This document shows positions 2,429-39,648 of a stretch of 39,858 nucleotides of DNA, piece after piece. Positions within the stretch are counted from its first letter, which is position 1, and each line of letters opens with the position of its first letter. The DNA lies in IMG/VR virus record IMGVR_UViG_3300020205_002120, positions 1 to 39,858 of that record; one strand, 5' to 3'. The notes under the pieces are model-generated. The model worked only from the letters and a program-made list of their open reading frames with translations, made no database searches and had not been told where the DNA came from. The position numbers were made by a program, and so were the translations under genes. This stretch comes from a virus.

Positions 2429-2695
2429 TTAAAATTGACCAGCTTCAATAGTCTGCTGATCTAAGAGTCTGGTAGCAATCCATTTATTTGTGATAGTATT
2501 ATATACAAGTACACTTCCTGCTTGTAAATTAGTCACATCAACGTCTCCACTATTGCTTATAGCCATTACAGTTGGAGGGCCCATCATGCCAGTAACAATT
2601 AATGTTGTACCTTTTTCTTCTGTAACAACTTGATTTACTGTTTGTGCCTGTATAACTGCTGTATCATTAGATTGAACTACTACAGTATCTGTCAT
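2429..2695 (-). CDS. small virion structural protein (88 aa)
   Basis: An 88-residue protein with a Val/Thr-rich N-terminus ([18 protein letters not shown]) and a C-terminal [20 protein letters not shown] motif. That second motif (L..GSVL.Y....NKW..T..L) is a recurrent sequence in phage fibre and neck-whisker-like proteins and usually marks a short beta-domain. The start codon overlaps the end of the upstream gene by 4 bp (ATGA), implying coupled translation. Likely a fibre adaptor; exact role unknown. Confidence 0.7.
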
Positions 2696-3282
2696 CTTGT
2701 TACCTCAGGCACTAAGGTTAAATTACCTACCAAGAAGCTCAATATATTATTAGCACTATCAAATAATTCAACTGAATATACAGCAGTACTAAAAGTAAAG
2801 TTTTGTGTTTGATTGCCCAGTATAGTAATTGTAATGGTTTTAGACACGTTATTTAACGTAATCTGTGCATTAGCAGTACTGGCTTCGTAAATTACGGTAG
2901 GACTATCAACTGTTTCGCGGATTTGCATTCTAGCACTATAATTTGCTAAATCAACAGGTTGATTATATTCAATAACTCCACCACTAGTATAAGCTGTGTA
3001 TGCCAAACTATTAATCTGATTTACTGTTACACTGGTTGAAGTAGTGCCTGTAGCTATATGGTAAGTATCCGAAGTTGGATATAATTCTTTCATACCACCA
3101 CCAGCTACCTTAAATCTCCATCCTACAGGCAAGGTATGGGCTGAAGTAGTGGTAATCACACAAGGAGCACTTTTAGCAATTGCTGAAATAGGAACATATA
3201 CTTTGGTCTCTGATTCCCAACGATATGTCTCTTGAAAGGTGCTGCCTTGATAAATTTTATAATTAAGTTTTGCTGGTTGCAT
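2692..3282 (-). CDS. putative BppU-like/fibre adaptor structural protein (196 aa)
   Basis: A 196-residue beta-rich protein beginning MQPAKLNYKIYQGSTFQETY. The N-terminal Y-x-G-(S/T)-T-F strand, then a central insertion and a SARMQIRETVDSPTVIYE segment, resemble the upstream baseplate/tail-fibre protein domain (BppU_N-like) that pairs short beta-strands with an R-x-Q-(I/V)-R motif. It is the first gene of the fibre block, placed about 120 bp downstream of a perfect sigma70 promoter (3405-3433) and after a terminator, so it opens its own transcription unit. The leader contains a 21-bp palindrome at 3299-3319 just before the AAGGCGG ribosome-binding site. Identification is by pattern; moderate confidence. 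Confidence 0.65.
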   Translation of the reverse strand: MQPAKLNYKIYQGSTFQETYRWESETKVYVPISAIAKSAPCVITTTSAHTLPVGWRFKVAGGGMKELYPTSDTYHIATGTTSTSVTVNQINSLAYTAYTSGGVIEYNQPVDLANYSARMQIRETVDSPTVIYEASTANAQITLNNVSKTITITILGNQTQNFTFSTAVYSVELFDSANNILSFLVGNLTLVPEVTR

Positions 3283-3404: not shown

Positions 3405-3433
3405 ATTATACCATAAGGGCTGCTACTTGTCAA
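3405..3433 (-). promoter_or_regulatory. consensus sigma70 promoter for the fibre block
   Basis: On the minus strand TTGACA (3433-3428) and TATAAT (3410-3405) are separated by exactly 17 bp, a perfect match to the sigma70 consensus. It lies between the terminator of the 1521-aa adhesin gene and the fibre block beginning at 3282, leaving a leader of roughly 115 nt. Confidence 0.9.
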
Positions 3434-20829: not shown

Positions 20830-20858
20830 ATTATATCATTATAGGAGCACGTTGTCAA
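20830..20858 (-). promoter_or_regulatory. consensus sigma70 promoter for tape measure/tail-tip operon
   Basis: TTGACA (20858-20853) and TATAAT (20835-20830) on the minus strand, spacer exactly 17 bp. It lies between the terminator at 20879-20912 and the tape measure start at 20781. A second TATAAT at 20846-20841 is too close to the -35 to be used with it. Confidence 0.92.
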
Positions 20859-25586: not shown

Positions 25587-27545
25587 TTAGGTAGCTGTAT
25601 ATTTGTGTGCTGTAACTGCGTTACCGTAGTTACTTGTAACACGTGTCATACCTGTACGTAAGCTAGCGACCATCACACGGCGTTGTGTTTCCACTAACTC
25701 TTGTGTGTCGATACGCAGACCACGCTGATTACCAACGATAAAGTTGCCTGGGTTCAAGCAAATTGCACCTGCAACGCCAGTACCTGGTGAAGCAAACTCA
25801 CCGGAGACCAACACTGGGCTTCCACCGATTTGACCGATTTGACCAGTCAACAATGTAGCTTGTGTACCAACTTGATTCATTGTCTGGAACACTGTATCTT
25901 CAAGCAATTGATAGTATGTATCGGTATTAACGATATAAACCACTTCTGCAGGATCGAGACCCCAAGTGCCAAGACCTTGACGTAATGCGCGCATTTTAGC
26001 AACAGTCATACCAGCAACAACAGTATTACCTGTAGCAGTGGTGTTAGTAGCCCAAGCTGCTAAACCTTTGACAGGCACTGTAGCATCGCCGGCACCTAAC
26101 AAGAAAGCTGCATCAACAGCACGTGCAACACGACGAATCATGCCATCACGGATGATTGGCATAAGAGCCAATAATGCATCTTCTTCTTCTTCGTAAGCTG
26201 TGTACTCATTAGTAGCAACTTTATATGCATTCAAAGTAATTTCTTTGATAGCGTGTGTAGCATTTCCACCAGCAGAAGCACCAGCAGCACCAAGTGTGCC
26301 TGGAACAGCGCCAAAGTTGCTGTTAGCAACCCAAGTAGCAGTACCTGCTTCTGGATTAACTGGAATAGTCATTACGTTAGTTTGCATAGCAATGTTGCGG
26401 AAGATAGGTGCAACAACTAAACGACGACGAACTTCAGCTTCTAAATTCAAAGAAACTTCTGTTTCCCAGGTAGCAGAAGGAACGTGAGCACCATACTTTT
26501 CAGCATAAGCACGACCTGTACGTGTACCTTCGATAGATTTACCAGCCATTTTAGCCAATAAAACTGCTTTCTCTTTATCAGCATAAGTCATTTCACCAGA
26601 CTTGGTGTCTGTAAAAGTCATACGTGATTTTTGAATAGCTTCTAATTCAGAGGCTTTCTCTTTCAAAACAGACTCTAAACCAGCTAAAGCTGATTTGCTC
26701 TGCTCTGTTTGAGCTTCTAAACGTTTTTCAACTTCGGCCAACAAACGTTCAGCGCCTGTGTCACCAGTTGAGATTTGAGCAGCAACGGCTGCCTTGACTT
26801 TAGCATCGAAGTCTTGCTGAGCTTTATCAGCAGCGGCTTTTTGATCAGCAGCTTTAGTTTGAGCTTCGATAACAGCTTTAGCTGTAGATTCTGCGGCTTT
26901 AGTAGCAGCGTCTGCTAGCAATTGTTCTAATTGTTTTGGATCCATGATGTTCCATTCCTTTTTGATTTCGCTTTTTGCTTCCGTTGTGGATTCTAGCCCT
27001 TTAGCTGAGTCGCCTTTGGGTGCAAATTGCAGTTTGAAAGATTTAAATTCTTCGGCATCGTCAAATGCTTTAGAAAGACTAAATAGAGTATTTTGATTTG
27101 CTGGCACTGACACTACTGAAATTTCATGTAGTTCCAATTCTTTTACTACGAACAGCTCTGCAGCTGCATTGTATTCCGCGTCTATAATTCGGAATCCGAT
27201 ACTAAATGCGGTTAGTACACCGTCTTTTACAAGATTGTACACTTCTTCTGCTGCTGTGGAGATTCTGGCTTTAATCCATAATCCTTTGGCATCAATTTTG
27301 TGTTCTACCATTCGGCCAACTGGCTCACTATGATCGTGATACGCTAAAATTACTGGATTTTTCAAGTAATTTGCAATACCCTTTTCCCAGACATTTGTTG
27401 GCACTACATCTCCTTGACGATCTGTATCATTGGTACTTGCGTAGCCCATGATATAAATACTACCTTCTGGATCTGTACTTGCTGGTAGAGCATCACTCTT
27501 TATAAACGAGCTATTTAAGTATAGCACTTTATTTTTATCTACCAT
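25587..27545 (-). CDS. prohead protease - major capsid protein fusion (652 aa)
   Basis: One continuous frame encodes two HK97-type functions. Residues 1-~165 are a U35-type prohead protease: AYHDHSEPVGR (catalytic His70) and VLTAFSIGFR (Ser115), followed by LELHEISVVSVPANQ. Residues ~205-300 are Ala/Gln/Lys-rich coiled coil, like the HK97 delta/scaffold domain. Residues ~320-652 are the HK97-fold capsid (YAEKYGAHVPSATWETEVSL; RNIAMQTNVMTIPVNPEAGT). An internal in-frame ATG at 26945 (Met201) has AAGGA 10 bp upstream, so free capsid precursor (452 aa) could be made too. The GC content appears higher than neighbours, as often seen for highly expressed capsid genes. A terminator follows. Confidence 0.9.
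   Translation of the reverse strand: MVDKNKVLYLNSSFIKSDALPASTDPEGSIYIMGYASTNDTDRQGDVVPTNVWEKGIANYLKNPVILAYHDHSEPVGRMVEHKIDAKGLWIKARISTAAEEVYNLVKDGVLTAFSIGFRIIDAEYNAAAELFVVKELELHEISVVSVPANQNTLFSLSKAFDDAEEFKSFKLQFAPKGDSAKGLESTTEAKSEIKKEWNIMDPKQLEQLLADAATKAAESTAKAVIEAQTKAADQKAAADKAQQDFDAKVKAAVAAQISTGDTGAERLLAEVEKRLEAQTEQSKSALAGLESVLKEKASELEAIQKSRMTFTDTKSGEMTYADKEKAVLLAKMAGKSIEGTRTGRAYAEKYGAHVPSATWETEVSLNLEAEVRRRLVVAPIFRNIAMQTNVMTIPVNPEAGTATWVANSNFGAVPGTLGAAGASAGGNATHAIKEITLNAYKVATNEYTAYEEEEDALLALMPIIRDGMIRRVARAVDAAFLLGAGDATVPVKGLAAWATNTTATGNTVVAGMTVAKMRALRQGLGTWGLDPAEVVYIVNTDTYYQLLEDTVFQTMNQVGTQATLLTGQIGQIGGSPVLVSGEFASPGTGVAGAICLNPGNFIVGNQRGLRIDTQELVETQRRVMVASLRTGMTRVTSNYGNAVTAHKYTAT
26943..26960 (-). 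promoter_or_regulatory. candidate internal ribosome-binding site and start for free capsid protein
   Basis: AAGGA at 26960-26956 precedes an in-frame ATG at 26945-26943 by 10 nt, starting MDPKQLEQLLADAATKAAES. This is exactly the junction between the protease domain and the coiled coil, the natural capsid-precursor N-terminus. Most genes in this arm use the same AAGGA site. Confidence 0.55.
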
Positions 27546-27554
27546 AATTTTCCT

Positions 27555-28754
27555 TTATTGCTGAGTATCTGCTGGTTTCTTACCGGGGGGTCTTCCACCT
27601 TGTGACGGGTCAGCGGCCGAACCTGCAATATTAGCAGGGATTCTTATTTCGTTATGTCCTGTCATTTCAGGGTAACGTAATTCTATTCTAGCTTCGTTAG
27701 CAGTAATAATTCCTGCATTAACTAATGTGGAGTAATATGCTGCTTGATCTTTTAATTCTGGTTGTAATGCTGAGACAGTGCTCGTGATTGCTTCTACATC
27801 ATATCCGTAGTAACGCTCAATAGAAGACACAAATTTTCTTACAACAGGCAATACTGTTTCTAAATAAAATAATCGTAAGTTTGGGGAAATATTAGCATTG
27901 TTACCACCAGCTAATAAGATAGGTGGTACACCGATAACTTGCATTAATTTTTCACTATGTGTTTTAATAGACTCGTTAAAGTCCATTTCTCTAAAATTTG
28001 TGTCGCTTACTGTGGCAGGTTTAAGTCCCGAGTCTAAAATAACTGGGCGCTTTCCACCTTGTTTTGAACTATATTTTTGTAACCAGTATTGTATTGTTTT
28101 TTCTTTTGCGACTTGTGATAGTGTGTTTTCTGATGTTAATACCAAACCAAATACAGCACCATTTTCAAAGTATTGTTCTTGGAATTGTAACATTGAGTAT
28201 AGGGTATTAATTGTTTTTTGCGAACTCTCCAATCGTGAACTACCACGATAGATTGACTGAGAATTTAAGTCCCTAAAGTGGAATACTTCGTTCTCAGGAA
28301 AAACAACTATACCATTGTATCTATAACCACTAATAAATGTTTTGACGTCTGTCAAAATTTCTACATTGATTGATGGTAAGTGGTACATAAATGTACCGTC
28401 AAAATGTATAAATACATTGCCTTCAAGAATTAAGTCTGTAAAAATAGCTTGACGAAATTCTTGAACTGATTGATATGGGTTTGGTCTAAAGTTTAATAAG
28501 TTGTGTAGTGTCTTTTGGCGAACACCAGCAACAATACCATCATTTAACTTATCTTTAATGTCATAGTCCATTGAGCTACATGCTGACACCAACATATTAA
28601 CCGAACGGTTAACAGCTTCAATTTTTTTAAATGCTTGTTGGTAAGTAATTGTAGCAGTAGTTGTTACAAATGTACCTTCTGATTGAGCAATTCTAGCTTG
28701 TGCTGGGTTTAATTTTTCCACGACCCAATTACGTGTATTTGAAATCCATGACAT
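27555..28754 (-). CDS. portal protein, HK97 family (399 aa)
   Basis: 399 residues, normal for HK97-type portals. Visible features are the N-terminal helix region (EAVNRSVNMLVSACSSMDYD), ILEGNVFIHFDGTFMYHLPS, the VFHFRDLNSQSIYRGSSRLE strand/loop, GVPPILLAGGNNANISPNLR and the C-terminal helical region. A Pro/Gly-rich tail ends PPGKKPADTQQ. The portal forms the dodecameric DNA entry ring at one capsid vertex and binds terminase. It precedes the protease-capsid gene by 9 bp, the standard order. AGGAT precedes the ATG. Confidence 0.92.
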   Translation of the reverse strand: MSWISNTRNWVVEKLNPAQARIAQSEGTFVTTTATITYQQAFKKIEAVNRSVNMLVSACSSMDYDIKDKLNDGIVAGVRQKTLHNLLNFRPNPYQSVQEFRQAIFTDLILEGNVFIHFDGTFMYHLPSINVEILTDVKTFISGYRYNGIVVFPENEVFHFRDLNSQSIYRGSSRLESSQKTINTLYSMLQFQEQYFENGAVFGLVLTSENTLSQVAKEKTIQYWLQKYSSKQGGKRPVILDSGLKPATVSDTNFREMDFNESIKTHSEKLMQVIGVPPILLAGGNNANISPNLRLFYLETVLPVVRKFVSSIERYYGYDVEAITSTVSALQPELKDQAAYYSTLVNAGIITANEARIELRYPEMTGHNEIRIPANIAGSAADPSQGGRPPGKKPADTQQ

Positions 28755-28762
28755 ATTTTATC

Positions 28763-29194
28763 CTAAGTAAATTGGCTAAAGAATGATCCTGAGCTAACTT
28801 TAGGAATAGGTTGACCACCGCCCGCAATTTTATCGCGCTGAAGCTCGATCCATCGAACTTGCTTGGTCTCTGAACCAGTCATGGGAGTTTTACCGTAAAC
28901 ACCGTGTAGTTGAATATGATGACGATTACATAGGGTGTAAACTTGATCATATAACTCACTGCGATGTGTATCAATAAACTCGTCACGAACAGCCAGAATC
29001 CCATCATCAGTAGAAATATCATAACTCATCTTAGCAGCCCAAGTATTTACTAGGGTAGTAATAGAGTGAGTATGGTGTAATTCTAATTCAGCTTGAGTAT
29101 TACAGATATAACAATGATCTTGCTTTTCGTAAGCAGACTTGGCTCTATCTCTTATCCATTTAACTGCTATACGTTTATTGGTATTAGCAGCCAT
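28763..29194 (-). CDS. HNH endonuclease (143 aa)
   Basis: A zinc-stabilised HNH nuclease: CYIC at 28-31, LELHHTHS with the H-H pair at 40-41, and LCNRHHIQLH with Cys89, Asn90, His92 and His93. This gives the two CxxC/C-half knuckles and HH..N..H catalytic set. HNH proteins beside terminase genes in HK97/lambda-like phages assist terminase cleavage at packaging; a free-standing homing role is the alternative. The start ATG at 29194 lies directly after the Dps stop (TAATATG) without its own clear ribosome site, so translation is coupled to Dps. Confidence 0.88.
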   Translation of the reverse strand: MAANTNKRIAVKWIRDRAKSAYEKQDHCYICNTQAELELHHTHSITTLVNTWAAKMSYDISTDDGILAVRDEFIDTHRSELYDQVYTLCNRHHIQLHGVYGKTPMTGSETKQVRWIELQRDKIAGGGQPIPKVSSGSFFSQFT

Positions 29195-29195
29195 A

Positions 29196-29636
29196 TTATT
29201 TTAATGTGCTACGCAGCATCCACGAATGCTTTTTGTGTGCATCTTGGCGATCAGCCAAAAAGTTTGATAACCCGTGATCACCCATTTGTTCGGCTAAAAC
29301 AAATCCTTGACGGAATAATTCAGCCAAATTGTCACTATCTACCAAAAGCTCTTGAGCCATTGTAGCAGGTTGTTGTACTTGGTCTTGACCCATAATAATA
29401 CTAAGTTCATTTAAAATTCCTAAAGAAGCAGGTGTATATGATTTAAGGGCACGAAGCTGTTCAGCAAATATATCTACCGATTCAAAAACTTCGTTATAGA
29501 TGCGCTCAAATAATAGATGAAATTCGTAAAAGTTACTACCTTCAACATTCCAGTGAAAGTTAGCAGCTTTTAGATAGAACGCAAACTCTGAAGCAAACAA
29601 GGTTTGCATATTCTTTATGTACTGATCTTGATCCAT
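29196..29636 (-). CDS. dps: Dps-like ferritin (DNA protection during starvation) (146 aa)
   Basis: A 146-residue four-helix protein of the Dps family. The ferroxidase ligands have the exact Dps spacing: His28 (NFHWNV), His40 (FHLLFE), Asp55 and Glu59 (SVDIFAEQL), i.e. +12, +15, +4 as in bacterial Dps; Glu44 takes the place of the usual second-sphere Asp. Dps dodecamers oxidise ferrous iron with peroxide and can coat DNA. It has its own perfect sigma70 promoter (29684-29712) and begins the operon containing HNH, portal and capsid, so it is expressed with late genes. It is unusual cargo here; it might protect phage DNA or host from oxidative damage. Family call is strong, role is inference. Confidence 0.9.
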   Translation of the reverse strand: MDQDQYIKNMQTLFASEFAFYLKAANFHWNVEGSNFYEFHLLFERIYNEVFESVDIFAEQLRALKSYTPASLGILNELSIIMGQDQVQQPATMAQELLVDSDNLAELFRQGFVLAEQMGDHGLSNFLADRQDAHKKHSWMLRSTLK

Positions 29637-29683
29637 TTTTTTATCCTGTGGCTTTAAACAAAACCTTAATACGCATTACATGT

Positions 29684-29712
29684 ATTATACTATAAGAGCA
29701 CTAAATTGTCAA
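29684..29712 (-). promoter_or_regulatory. consensus sigma70 promoter for the Dps-HNH-portal-capsid operon
   Basis: TTGACA (29712-29707), exactly 17 bp, TATAAT (29689-29684) on the minus strand. It sits in the 95-bp gap after the large terminase gene and gives a leader of roughly 40 nt before the Dps AGGAT site and ATG. No terminator hairpin is evident between terminase and this promoter. Confidence 0.92.
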
Positions 29713-29731: not shown

Positions 29732-31018
29732 TTAAATGGTATAAGTGTATAGTGCGTACCTAACGGCATCAGCCATATGACTATATTTATCGTGCATAGG
29801 GCGTTCGCGTTGTAGTCCTTCACGCTGATCCCAGCGATACTGATCGAACATAGCACGTACATTAGTACAGTGTGGAGCGACCTTTAGTCTACCTTGCTGT
29901 ACTAAGGTCTGCACATAAGCAATACCAGGTAACACATCTTTTTTGGCTTTAGTAGTTGAAATGTTATATAAGTAAGCAAGGTCACTAGCAAACTGTGCTG
30001 CAGCCGAATCGATAAATACTACTTCAACTCCATGACGCTCATTTAGTTCTGCAAAATGTGCAGCGTGCTCGGCAGTAGTTTTTTCTGCCTTTAAATATTC
30101 GTCTACTACCCAGAAACAGTCACTATTCCAATCATATACAATTACACAAAATGCAGTCTCGTCTCTATATCCTGGATCGCAGCCAGCAATAGCTTCGCCT
30201 TTTAAGTCTTCAGGAGGTTCCATTACATCAGTATCTGCAAGTGAGTATATTTGACCCTCAAATGTAGTAAACGATGCTAAATATTCTTGTTCAAACTCTG
30301 CGCGACTCATCGAACGCTTAGCTTCTGCAACATCCGATTCAGCCATTCTAGTATTTTCAGTGTAGTCGGCCTGAAGTGAGATCCATTCTGGAAAGTTTGG
30401 GTCAAATCCACGATTCCAAAACTGTGAAAACCAGTTATTACGACCACGTGGGGTCGATATAAAAATAGCTTTAGCCTGTGGCTTGTCTAATGTAGGTCTG
30501 AGTGCTACATTAAAGGCAGCCTCACCACCTTCACCGAGCGCAGCTTCGTCGAAGATGATTAGATCATAAGATCTACCTACAGTCGAGTCTACTGTACTCA
30601 ACGATCCCATGCGAATGGTACTACCATTTTCCAACTCAATAATCTTATCTTTTAAGTTGTCTCTAGCAACTTCCAAATCAAAGTGTTTTATCAATTTACG
30701 TTGTAGCTCGAATGAAATGCTGCTGAGATTGTAGTTTGGGGAAATGATTAGAACATTCGAACCAGGTACAAGTGTTACTAACTGACCAATAATGTTAGCT
30801 ATATAGGTTTTGCCCAGTCTGCGTGCAAGTGCAGCGCAAATAAAGCGGTACTTGGGATCATTAACTGCATTAATTAGTGCAACCTGTGGACGATTGATTG
30901 TATCGTATACATCAAGCAGTTTTAAGTAATTTGTGATAGGTAGCTTAATAAATCTCTGTTGAGGGTCTATTTCAGTAATAGCATCTACATTGATATCTGG
31001 TCTAGAAACTAACAGCAT
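29732..31018 (-). CDS. terL: terminase large subunit (428 aa)
   Basis: The packaging motor and nuclease. Walker A is the degenerate ARRLGKT (65-71), Walker B LIIFDEA with Asp157/Glu158, then a coupling motif ISTPRGRNNWFSQFW. The C-terminal RNase H-like nuclease has GCDPGYRDETAF (first acidic residue), VFIDSAAAQFASDLAY and a final HDKYSHMADAVRYALYTYT. Length is normal for the Terminase_6/HK97-like group. It starts on the last base of the SGNH hydrolase stop. Genes for the small subunit and large subunit are separated by three cargo genes, unlike the usual adjacent pair. Confidence 0.95.
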   Translation of the reverse strand: MLLVSRPDINVDAITEIDPQQRFIKLPITNYLKLLDVYDTINRPQVALINAVNDPKYRFICAALARRLGKTYIANIIGQLVTLVPGSNVLIISPNYNLSSISFELQRKLIKHFDLEVARDNLKDKIIELENGSTIRMGSLSTVDSTVGRSYDLIIFDEAALGEGGEAAFNVALRPTLDKPQAKAIFISTPRGRNNWFSQFWNRGFDPNFPEWISLQADYTENTRMAESDVAEAKRSMSRAEFEQEYLASFTTFEGQIYSLADTDVMEPPEDLKGEAIAGCDPGYRDETAFCVIVYDWNSDCFWVVDEYLKAEKTTAEHAAHFAELNERHGVEVVFIDSAAAQFASDLAYLYNISTTKAKKDVLPGIAYVQTLVQQGRLKVAPHCTNVRAMFDQYRWDQREGLQRERPMHDKYSHMADAVRYALYTYTI

Positions 31019-33620: not shown

Positions 33621-33944
33621 ATGACTACTAAAACTGTGAACTATACCCCTGAGCAAACAAGCAAAATGATTGCTGACTATCAGGCGGGTGCAACTGTTGA
33701 GACTCTTGCTCAAGAGTTGGGTAAGACTGTGCGTTCAATCGTTGCAAAGCTCTCACGTGAGAAAGTATATCAGGCTAAGACTTATGTGTCAAAGTCTGGC
33801 GAGACACCAGTCAAGAAAGATGCTCACGCTGATTTTATTGGCGAGGCTTTGGGCTTGACTGAATCAGATACCGATTCGCTTACAAAAGCGAATAAGGTAG
33901 CATTGGCTAAGATTGCCGATTTTATCAGGGCTGAAAAGTTTTGA
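33621..33944 (+). CDS. HTH-type DNA-binding protein, paralogue 1 (107 aa)
   Basis: First gene of the early arm, 107 residues. The N-terminal ~50 residues (TVNYTPEQTSKMIADYQAGA, TVETLAQELGKTVRSIVAKL, SREKVY) form a predicted helix-turn-helix: helix, V-E-T-L-A-x-x-L-G-K-T-x-R-S-I-V-A-K-L recognition region. The C-terminal half is an acidic alpha-helical region (EALGLTESDTDSLTKANKVA). Two paralogues occur at 38263-38589 and 39343-39648. The family is seen in phage early regions, but its target is unknown to me. The promoter region carries an 18-bp palindrome that it or a paralogue might bind (inference). AAAGGA is 8 bp before the ATG; a palindromic hairpin follows. Confidence 0.75.
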   Translation: MTTKTVNYTPEQTSKMIADYQAGATVETLAQELGKTVRSIVAKLSREKVYQAKTYVSKSGETPVKKDAHADFIGEALGLTESDTDSLTKANKVALAKIADFIRAEKF

Positions 33945-34455: not shown

Positions 34456-34507
34456 AAACGAAAGGATTACAGAATGAAATGTAATACTTTTGTTTCTGGA
34501 GGCGCCA

Positions 34508-34537
34508 ATTATACCATGTATAATTGGGGCGTGTCAA
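34508..34537 (-). promoter_or_regulatory. leftward consensus promoter of cassette M1
   Basis: TTGACA-N18-TATAAT on the minus strand, directed against the 3' end of the SprT-like gene. The -10 sits in the dyad CCAATTATAC / GTATAATTGG. Confidence 0.8.
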
Positions 34538-35137: not shown

Positions 35138-35340
35138 TTTGAATACTTTTGTTTCCTATAAAAACTGGAAACAAAAGTATTACATTTCGAGGCGCCAAAT
35201 TATATCATATAATTTGGGCACGTGTCAAGGGTTTTTGCAAATATATTTTTTATGTTGTATTTTTGCACAAATGAAAAATAATTGTTGTATTGGCTGTTTT
35301 TCGTGTATAATTCACTCATACACTAAACAAGGTTTACAAA
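35138..35340. repeat. early-arm cassette M2
   Basis: The 203-bp gap has a hairpin (AATACTTTTGTTTCC 35142-35156 and its complement 35167-35181, 10-nt loop), GGCGCC (35191-35196), leftward TATAAT 35204-35199 and TTGACA 35228-35223 with 18-bp spacing, and an 11-bp-arm dyad around the -10. The TATGTTGTATTTTTGC box and the -10 of the HAD gene follow (TATAAT 35306-35311; best -35 is TTGTTG, 18 bp away). Confidence 0.8.
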
Positions 35341-35968: not shown

Positions 35969-36153
35969 ATTTGAATACTTTTGTTTCCCATAAAAATTGA
36001 ATACTCAGGTATTCAATTTTGCGCCAATTTTATCACATAAAATTGGGGCGTGTCAAGTTTTTTCGTATAACTTATTTTTTGTGTGTGTTTAAAAAACCAC
36101 ACCTATTTTTATTTTTATGTGTTAAGATGTAGGCTTACCAACTAAGGCACACA
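35969..36153. repeat. early-arm cassette M3 (mosaic)
   Basis: It keeps the left hairpin arm (35974-35988) but the rest is replaced by a different perfect 12-bp hairpin, AAAATTGAATAC / GTATTCAATTTT (35993-36020, TCAG loop). Then come GCGCC, a leftward TAAAAT 36032-36027 and TTGACA 36056-36051 (18-bp spacer), and a dyad CCAATTTTAT / ATAAAATTGG. A 35-bp segment (about 36065-36099) is repeated almost exactly in cassette M4. The exonuclease gene has only a weak -10 (TAAGAT 36123-36128). Confidence 0.75.
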
Positions 36154-37135: not shown

Positions 37136-37307
37136 TTGTAATACTTTTGTTTTCAAATAAAATGGGAAACAAAAGTATTACTTTTTTGAGGCGCCAAAAT
37201 TATATCATAATTTTGGAGGCGGTGTCAAGCATTTTTTAATAACTTATTTTTTGTGTGTGTTTAAAAAACCACACCATTTTTGGTATTTTTCGGGTATAAT
37301 TTAAGAC
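37136..37307. repeat. early-arm cassette M4
   Basis: Hairpin GTAATACTTTTGTTT (37138-37152) / AAACAAAAGTATTAC (37167-37181), then six T: a plus-strand terminator. GGCGCC 37190-37195; leftward TATAAT 37204-37199 and TTGACA 37228-37223, 18-bp spacer; dyad CCAAAATTAT / ATAATTTTGG. After the segment shared with M3, a rightward TATAAT (37295-37300) ends 7 bp before the next ATG, with no good -35. Confidence 0.82.
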
Positions 37308-38042: not shown

Positions 38043-38262
38043 AATATTGTAATACTTTTGTTTTCAGATAAAATGGGAAACAAAAGTATTACTTTTTGGG
38101 GCGCCAAAATTATACCATAATTTTGCAGGACGTGTCAATAGGGATATACCCTAATGTTGCATACAAACCACAAATAACCCCACAAAAAATAAGTTGTTGC
38201 AGATTCTGAATTTTTTGTTATAATAGAGACTTCTCCACTCCACTACTCTGAAAGGGTTTAAA
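38043..38262. repeat. early-arm cassette M5
   Basis: Hairpin GTAATACTTTTGTTT (38049-38063) / AAACAAAAGTATTAC (38078-38092) with five T: plus-strand terminator. GGCGCC 38100-38105; leftward TATAAT 38114-38109 and TTGACA 38138-38133 (18-bp spacer); 9-bp-arm dyad. An operator-like TAGGGATATACCCTA (38139-38153) abuts the -35. A rightward promoter TTGCAG-N16-TATAAT (38197-38224) serves HTH paralogue 2. Confidence 0.82.
38197..38224 (+). promoter_or_regulatory. promoter for HTH paralogue 2
   Basis: TTGCAG, 16 bp, TATAAT; about 38 bp upstream of the ATG at 38263, which has AAAGGG 6 bp before it. Layout mirrors that of HTH paralogue 1. Confidence 0.65.
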
Positions 38263-38589
38263 ATGACAGCAAAAACTGTAAACTATACCGCAGAACAAAC
38301 TGCGAAGATGATTGCCGATTATCAATCTGGATTTTCGGTTGAAACTATTGCCGAAAATGTCGGCAAAACTGTTCGGTCGGTCGTTGCAAAATTGAGCCGT
38401 GAAAAGGTTTACCAAGCGAAAACCTACACTTCCAAAACTGGCGAAAAACCAGTTAAAAAAGACGTTCATGCCGATGCAATCGGTGCAATTTTGCGCTTGA
38501 ATGAAAACGATATTGAATCGTTAACAAAAGCAAACAAAAATGCTTTAAAAGCAATTTTTGATGCTTTGGCTAATTCAAAGCCAATTTAA
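38263..38589 (+). CDS. HTH-type DNA-binding protein, paralogue 2 (108 aa)
   Basis: A close homologue of the protein at 33621-33944 over its whole length (VNYTAEQTAKMIADYQSGFS, VETIAENVGKTVRSVVAKLS, REKVYQAKTYTSKTGEKPVK), 108 residues. The recognition segment KTVRS(I/V)VAKLSREKVYQAKTY is nearly identical to paralogue 1, so both may bind the same site; the C-terminal acidic half differs more. Third codon positions differ widely from paralogue 1, so the duplication is old or the copies were gained separately. Two terminator hairpins follow. Confidence 0.75.
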   Translation: MTAKTVNYTAEQTAKMIADYQSGFSVETIAENVGKTVRSVVAKLSREKVYQAKTYTSKTGEKPVKKDVHADAIGAILRLNENDIESLTKANKNALKAIFDALANSKPI

Positions 38590-38672: not shown

Positions 38673-38755
38673 GGCGCCAAAATTATAACATAATTTTGGC
38701 GAGCGTGTCAAGAACTATTTTGTAGGTGTTTTCCCCTATGTTGTTTTTATGCAAC

Positions 38756-38958: not shown

Positions 38959-39099
38959 ATGCTGCGCCAGTGGAAATCCTTGTCAAGTGGAAATCTTTGA
39001 GGTACCGCAGGCGCCAATTATACAGTGCCAAACTGAATCTTGTCAAGTAAAAAATTTTAAACCAAACTGAATTGAAATTTTACGTTTATAATTTTGTAT

Positions 39100-39299: not shown

Positions 39300-39342
39300 A
39301 GAATCTTAAACAGCGCAGAAACCAAAACATAAAGGACATATG

Positions 39343-39648
39343 ATGACTGACAAAACTGTAAACTATACCCCCGAGCAAACTGCTGAACTCGTTCAAGCAT
39401 ATGTAGAAGGTCAGAGCGTAGAAAATTTGGCAATGCAATTGGGTCGTAGCACTCGAAGCATTGTAGCTAAATTGTCTCGTGAAGGCGTGTACAAAGCTAA
39501 GAGCAAAGCTTCTGGCGTTGCCCGTGTTAAAAAAGCTGATTTGGTAGATCAGATCGCTGCACGTTGCGGTGTAGCTCCAGAGATTTTTGAATCACTGGAA
39601 AAAGCCAATCACGAAGTGTTGGAGCAGATTGCTTTTAACCTGCGTTGA
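39343..39648 (+). CDS. HTH-type DNA-binding protein, paralogue 3 (101 aa)
   Basis: Third member of the family (DKTVNYTPEQTAELVQAYVE, GQSVENLAMQLGRSTRSIVA, KLSREGVYKAK). The second of two consecutive ATGs (39343) is chosen: AAAGGA is then 6 bp away and the N-terminus aligns with the paralogues. The recognition segment differs (GRSTRSIVAKLSREGVYKAK), as does the C-terminal half (DLVDQIAARCGVAPEIFESL), so DNA specificity or partners probably differ from copies 1 and 2. Codon choice is less AT-rich than in copy 2. Confidence 0.75.
   Translation: MTDKTVNYTPEQTAELVQAYVEGQSVENLAMQLGRSTRSIVAKLSREGVYKAKSKASGVARVKKADLVDQIAARCGVAPEIFESLEKANHEVLEQIAFNLR

Follow-up and report, generated by a model that had tools for sequence, protein, structure and literature searches.

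Why should a bacteriophage carry a Dps-type ferritin as the first gene of the operon that builds its head? The question is raised by a 39,858-nucleotide stretch of viral DNA (IMG/VR record IMGVR_UViG_3300020205_002120, positions 1 to 39,858; here the window), itself a fragment, for which an earlier note made from the sequence alone had proposed that such a gene, with an intact ferroxidase site, serves in iron/peroxide protection or in DNA binding during packaging.

The Dps gene and its product

The gene is real and encodes a genuine Dps-type ferritin, as the note had supposed. The interval that the note had assigned to it, 29196-29712, is on the minus strand throughout, which had not been stated, and contains a complete ORF of 146 amino acids (29196..29636, minus strand) with an ATG start and, 5′ of that start, a directly readable ribosome-binding-site-like AGGA (29644..29647, minus strand; GCCACAGGATAAAAAATG). 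The predicted protein scores 67 bits against the Pfam Ferritin family PF00210 (cut-off 24.5) and matches PHROG 3636, labelled ‘DNA binding protein’. In a search of solved proteins the best match was the Pseudomonas aeruginosa Dps PA0962 (E 1e-21), improving to E 1e-31 for a profile built from the window protein together with 20 viral homologues. The AlphaFold model, for which the window protein and viral homologues were the input alignment, has a pLDDT of 94.4 and helices at residues 3-30, 36-63, 72-78, 90-117 and 121-145, giving the four-helix ferritin fold with the short BC-loop helix; its nearest solved fold is again PA0962 (PDB 8ff9, TM-score 0.93), and the top PDB matches are all Dps.

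The helices span residues 3 to 145 of 146, and a basic N- or C-terminal tail of the E. coli Dps type is absent. The window protein has a pI of 4.86, each subunit carrying a charge of about -10, and the median pI of the T5-type homologues is 4.74, against 6.06 for bacterial relatives. This weakens the suggestion of DNA binding during packaging, and the model makes tail-mediated binding unlikely. DNA binding and condensation by the protein, perhaps as an aid to packaging or a shield for replicated DNA, is suggested by the family name, the PHROG label and the terminase and HNH neighbours described below; set against this charge, and against a closest solved relative, PA0962, that is also tail-less and cleaved DNA in vitro (according to the available text of PMC10002758), we consider it very improbable. 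It could instead cleave DNA like PA0962, contributing to late host-DNA breakdown or acting jointly with its HNH-type neighbour: PA0962 is the closest solved protein by both sequence and fold, and its cleavage of DNA with divalent metal is reported in the same part of that source. This activity of PA0962 is known in vitro only, with no cleavage mechanism given in that part of the source, the identity is about 33%, and no nuclease site could be traced in the window protein, so that cleavage seems to us, if anything, slightly more improbable still.

Position in the head operon

The Dps gene lies between the terminase large subunit gene terL (29732..31018, minus strand; domain and PHROG matches), which is upstream of the promoter considered below, and three further minus-strand genes, encoding an HNH-type protein (28763..29194; phrog_3497, with less strong similarity to an HNH endonuclease family), the portal protein (27555..28754; PF04860, 2e-51) and an S78 prohead protease fused to an HK97-type major capsid protein (25587..27545; PF04586 and PF05065). 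The protease and capsid domains form one 652-aa ORF in the window; in T5-like Vibrio phages they are separate genes. Because the HNH ATG begins one base past the Dps stop, translation of the two genes is probably coupled.

Among 80 close viral homologue loci, picked by Dps similarity alone, the HNH gene adjoins Dps in 63, and in these 63 the order TerL-Dps-HNH-portal-protease/capsid recurs wherever the contig is long enough, the contigs compared being metagenomic and partly redundant. The leading position that the note had given to Dps in the capsid operon therefore holds; its remark that this is not a textbook arrangement is right in that the placement is unusual, but it is not unique, being shared by those 63 of 80 loci.

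Ferroxidase ligands and selection

The window protein aligns with PA0962 ungapped, at an offset of 9, and its H28, H40, D55 and E59, which had been singled out for their Dps-like spacing, coincide with the PA0962 iron ligands H37, H49, D64 and E68. These four residues are unvarying in 81/81 viral homologues and 80/80 bacterial ones. At position 44, where a fifth ligand is usual, the window protein and 63/81 viral homologues have E and the remaining 18/81 have G, Q or D; 37/80 bacterial relatives have M. Ferroxidase activity may differ among homologues because this position varies. The median dN/dS of viral Dps is 0.095 (317 pairs), and the C-terminal third is near-invariant among the viral homologues. 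As judged from these comparisons, the gene is under purifying selection and its product is expected to be an active ferroxidase.

The promoter belongs to the operon

The promoter, a sigma-70-like TTGACA-17-TATAAT at 29684..29712 (minus strand), scores 12/12 and is kept in relatives with and without Dps. In head-operon loci the element before Dps scores 10-12/12 with a spacer of 17; the 56 gaps that contain Dps and the 21 that do not together score 10-12/12, against 8.2 in shuffles. The 21 distinct TerL-HNH gaps of relatives without Dps score 11-12/12 and have the promoter directly before HNH, where CACAGGA, 5′ of HNH, is the equivalent of the AGGA before Dps. Since Dps-less relatives keep the same element before HNH, the promoter is that of the head operon, with Dps sitting behind it, rather than one specific to Dps. 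The note's statement that Dps is the first gene behind a perfect promoter is accurate as to position and score, but the argument built on it is weaker than the note made it; as a mark of Dps we reject the promoter, which is present without Dps and has ten other perfect counterparts in the window (11 at 12/12 in all, against 0 expected in Markov-shuffled sequence).

Two of these counterparts, at 20830-20858 and 3405-3433, are also on the minus strand with a spacer of 17; the first lies ahead of a 1603-aa tape-measure-like gene and the second upstream of a gene at 2692-3282. With the head-operon promoter they have the appearance of a class of late promoters, whereas a spacer of 18 is found in the repeats at 34-39 kb. 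These are seven related repeats of about 36 nt between 34502 and 39046 (34502-34537, 35193-35228, 36021-36056, 37193-37228, 38103-38138, 38676-38711 and 39011-39046), six of which contain a perfect minus-strand TTGACA-N18-TATAAT, with a single mismatch in the other (36056). A palindrome of the type CCAAAATTATAxxATAATTTTGG encloses the -10 in most repeats, and several have a hairpin, AATACTTTTGTTTCC/GGAAACAAAAGTATT, after them on the same (minus) strand. The repeats face the opposite way to the small plus-strand ORFs that separate them, have no Rfam match, and are possibly operator-overlapped promoters or small RNAs. The window also encodes three paralogous plus-strand proteins of about 105 aa (33621-33944, 38263-38589 and 39340-39648) with M(T)xKTVNYTPEQT-like starts, of which the first weakly matches PHROG families of DNA-binding proteins or transcription regulators.

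An optional gene in a permissive junction

Among the best 80 of 395 TerL relatives, a sample that gives no estimate of prevalence, those with a readable junction had Dps in 23 cases and none in 47. Two contigs without Dps, L082 and L083, closely match the window in three proteins (TerL 98%, HNH 98% and portal 95% identical); the alignment runs through a homologous promoter and leader, then through Dps or nothing, and then through a common AAATAATATGG into HNH. On the TerL tree the presence of Dps changes 12 times, with at least 3 changes forced by well supported branches. A deep sister clade (TerL about 74%) has kept Dps in every sampled member with a readable junction, while in a further clade HNH follows TerL directly or a GIY-YIG endonuclease occupies the junction. 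The TerL-HNH junction is thus an insertion site which may be empty or hold Dps or a GIY-YIG endonuclease, on either strand (L082, L264-L277).

In this group of uncultivated T5-like phages Dps has a fixed place in a syntenic head operon and is missing from close relatives; it is an optional but selected cassette in a permissive junction between the promoter and HNH-portal-capsid. Those relatives evidently do not need it to build heads. It could be argued that Dps is simply a neutral passenger in a permissive site beside the terminase gene, as its presence is patchy and GIY-YIG endonucleases enter the same junction; a dN/dS of about 0.1, four invariant ligands, a near-invariant C-terminal third and retention throughout the sampled, readable part of the deep sister clade all speak against this, and we think it extremely improbable.

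Origin, and a second entry beside the terminase genes

Derivation from a bacterial host gene or a prophage was rejected: Dps from the genome-contig scan reached <=48% identity, and the best of them (L151) lies within a T4-like phage-type gene cluster in a MAG bin. Two quick trees conflicted on whether T5-type Dps forms a single clade. In a mixture-model tree, of fewer rows than the quick trees and 146 columns, T5-type Dps is one clade nested among the Dps of T4-like phages, with support of 98/96. Directly 5′ of Dps in the T4-like relatives among which this clade is nested we found no promoter.

In 44 of 146 loci, gathered in two scans that included a bacteria-anchored search, Dps lies on T4-like contigs between the small and large terminase subunits gp16 and gp17 (among them L297, L303, L309, L310, L312 and L313). 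Because this group is a clade of its own, well supported and separate from T5-type Dps, the gene has come into packaging or head modules on at least two occasions.

The T4-like Dps genes around the T5-type clade are preceded by genes whose products have common N-termini like MRAKEFITE or MLLRELF and also end in a C-terminal tag, (S/T)PVAKxKKNKYGI. At L048, L080, L081 and related loci several different neighbours begin with MRAKEF(I/L)xE or MLLRELF, one of them having a nucleotidyltransferase domain. Such neighbours are candidate head-packaged enzymes.

These observations bear on whether Dps is itself a component of the virion, with dodecamers in or on the head keeping iron and peroxide off the packaged DNA or bringing iron to the next cell. 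In favour are its place among head genes in T5-like phages and between both terminase subunits in T4-like ones, the likeness (by eye only) of its T4-like neighbours' N-termini to the capsid-targeting sequence described in PMC9958956, and three Dps-fold proteins of uncultured phages that bear the BFVD name ‘Prohead protease’. Against it, neither sequence nor model of the window protein has an N-terminal targeting extension ahead of helix 1, although this is one known way into heads and others exist; no Dps fusion occurs among the 146 loci; and relatives assemble heads without Dps. We consider the virion reading unlikely. A Dps-prohead protease fusion, as the BFVD names might imply, was rejected for those 146 loci and stays a lead. 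Slightly less likely again would be that the gene was recruited independently and repeatedly, as TerL-Dps-HNH-portal and as gp16-Dps-gp17, because the head, while it forms, is where Dps acts, inside it or upon it; were this so, Dps would sit in the prohead or on the packaging machine, sparing the DNA in the particle iron and peroxide, and would itself be delivered to the next host.

A proposed role in late iron and peroxide detoxification

We propose, with a probability of roughly 0.6, that the window Dps is an accessory dodecameric ferroxidase, acquired once behind the head-operon promoter, that lowers Fenton chemistry during packaging and assembly; iron/peroxide protection, as the note had put forward, is the best reading. 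The protein would form a dodecamer of the mini-ferritin type, oxidise Fe2+ at sites in the dimer interface, with H2O2 as the probable oxidant, and trap the iron. Its gene would be an accessory one serving phage fitness, outside the core head set, acquired in a single event by T5-like phages from T4-like phages as donors, into the first slot behind a pre-existing head-operon promoter, and since lost or swapped in many relatives. Through the shared promoter Dps would be made alongside HNH, portal and capsid, which would place its expression late. The most likely benefit would be to packaging and assembly, during which less Fenton chemistry in the dying cell would protect phage DNA and proteins.

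PA0962 is an H2O2-dependent ferroxidase, deletion of which makes cells peroxide-sensitive, as the available text of PMC10002758 reports. In Yersinia ruckeri infected by the lytic phage YerA41, host dps, catalase and peroxiredoxin are up at 15-30 min, whereas by 60 min the host genes that still differ number 15, all of them downregulated with one exception (PMC7354516); a Dps supplied by the phage at late times would fit this time course. Several points count against the detoxification reading: activity may differ among homologues with the fifth ligand position (E, G, Q or D), gene order alone cannot tell a protein made with head proteins from one that acts on them, and many close relatives live without Dps.

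Phage Dps has been regarded as auxiliary, a ‘stress’ gene, and here position and promoter tie it to head building in one lineage, as position ties it to the terminase genes in a second. Does iron or peroxide damage during packaging limit phage yield, a ferritin being the price of avoiding it? Natural pairs with and without Dps whose head modules are otherwise much alike make this question directly testable; the answer would also be relevant to the disputed proposal of iron transport by phage particles in aquatic settings.

Comparison with known systems

Phage-encoded Dps and phage ‘ROS defence’ have already been published; in the open-licence papers searched we found no Dps in a head operon or a gp16-gp17 slot or tied to prohead protease, and no recurrent packaging- or head-module placement. 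Lactobacillus phages encode Dps near DNA-metabolism genes (PMC6669764). According to the accessible part of PMC8008677, the Gratiaviridae and Flandersviridae of the gut encode Dps too, and in that of PMC6802176 ferritin is named among genes for ‘phage-mediated ROS defence’ in freshwater phages. The role proposed in these gut and freshwater cases, less iron or ROS in infection, is like that suggested here; unlike the window, neither placement at a head-operon promoter nor one between terminase genes is described in those parts of the two sources. Cultivated phages (Grimontviridae, Lahexavirus, Synechococcus phage S-SRM01 and Streptomyces phage Kenrey) encode members of the Dps family too. Where the context could be read, in Cronobacter, Salmonella, Aeromonas and Streptomyces phages, Dps is near ribonucleotide reductase, thymidylate synthase, polymerase or tRNA genes and not near head genes; the S-SRM01 and Bacteroides contexts were uninformative.

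By TerL the nearest named phages are T5-like Vibrio phages, at 51% identity, with the same head-gene order and no Dps. In one of these, D254 (TerL 51% identical), the head module runs, like that of the window, from TerL through a small ORF homologous to HNH to portal, protease and capsid, and it differs in being without Dps. Residues such as 121, 125, 131, 137 and 138 set the phage copies apart from bacterial Dps. Of the solved proteins, the one most like that of the window, PA0962, shares its fold, its ungapped His/His/Asp/Glu ligands and its freedom from basic tails; PA0962 belongs to cellular peroxide defence, whereas the window protein is about 33% identical to it and the phage copies belong to a head operon.
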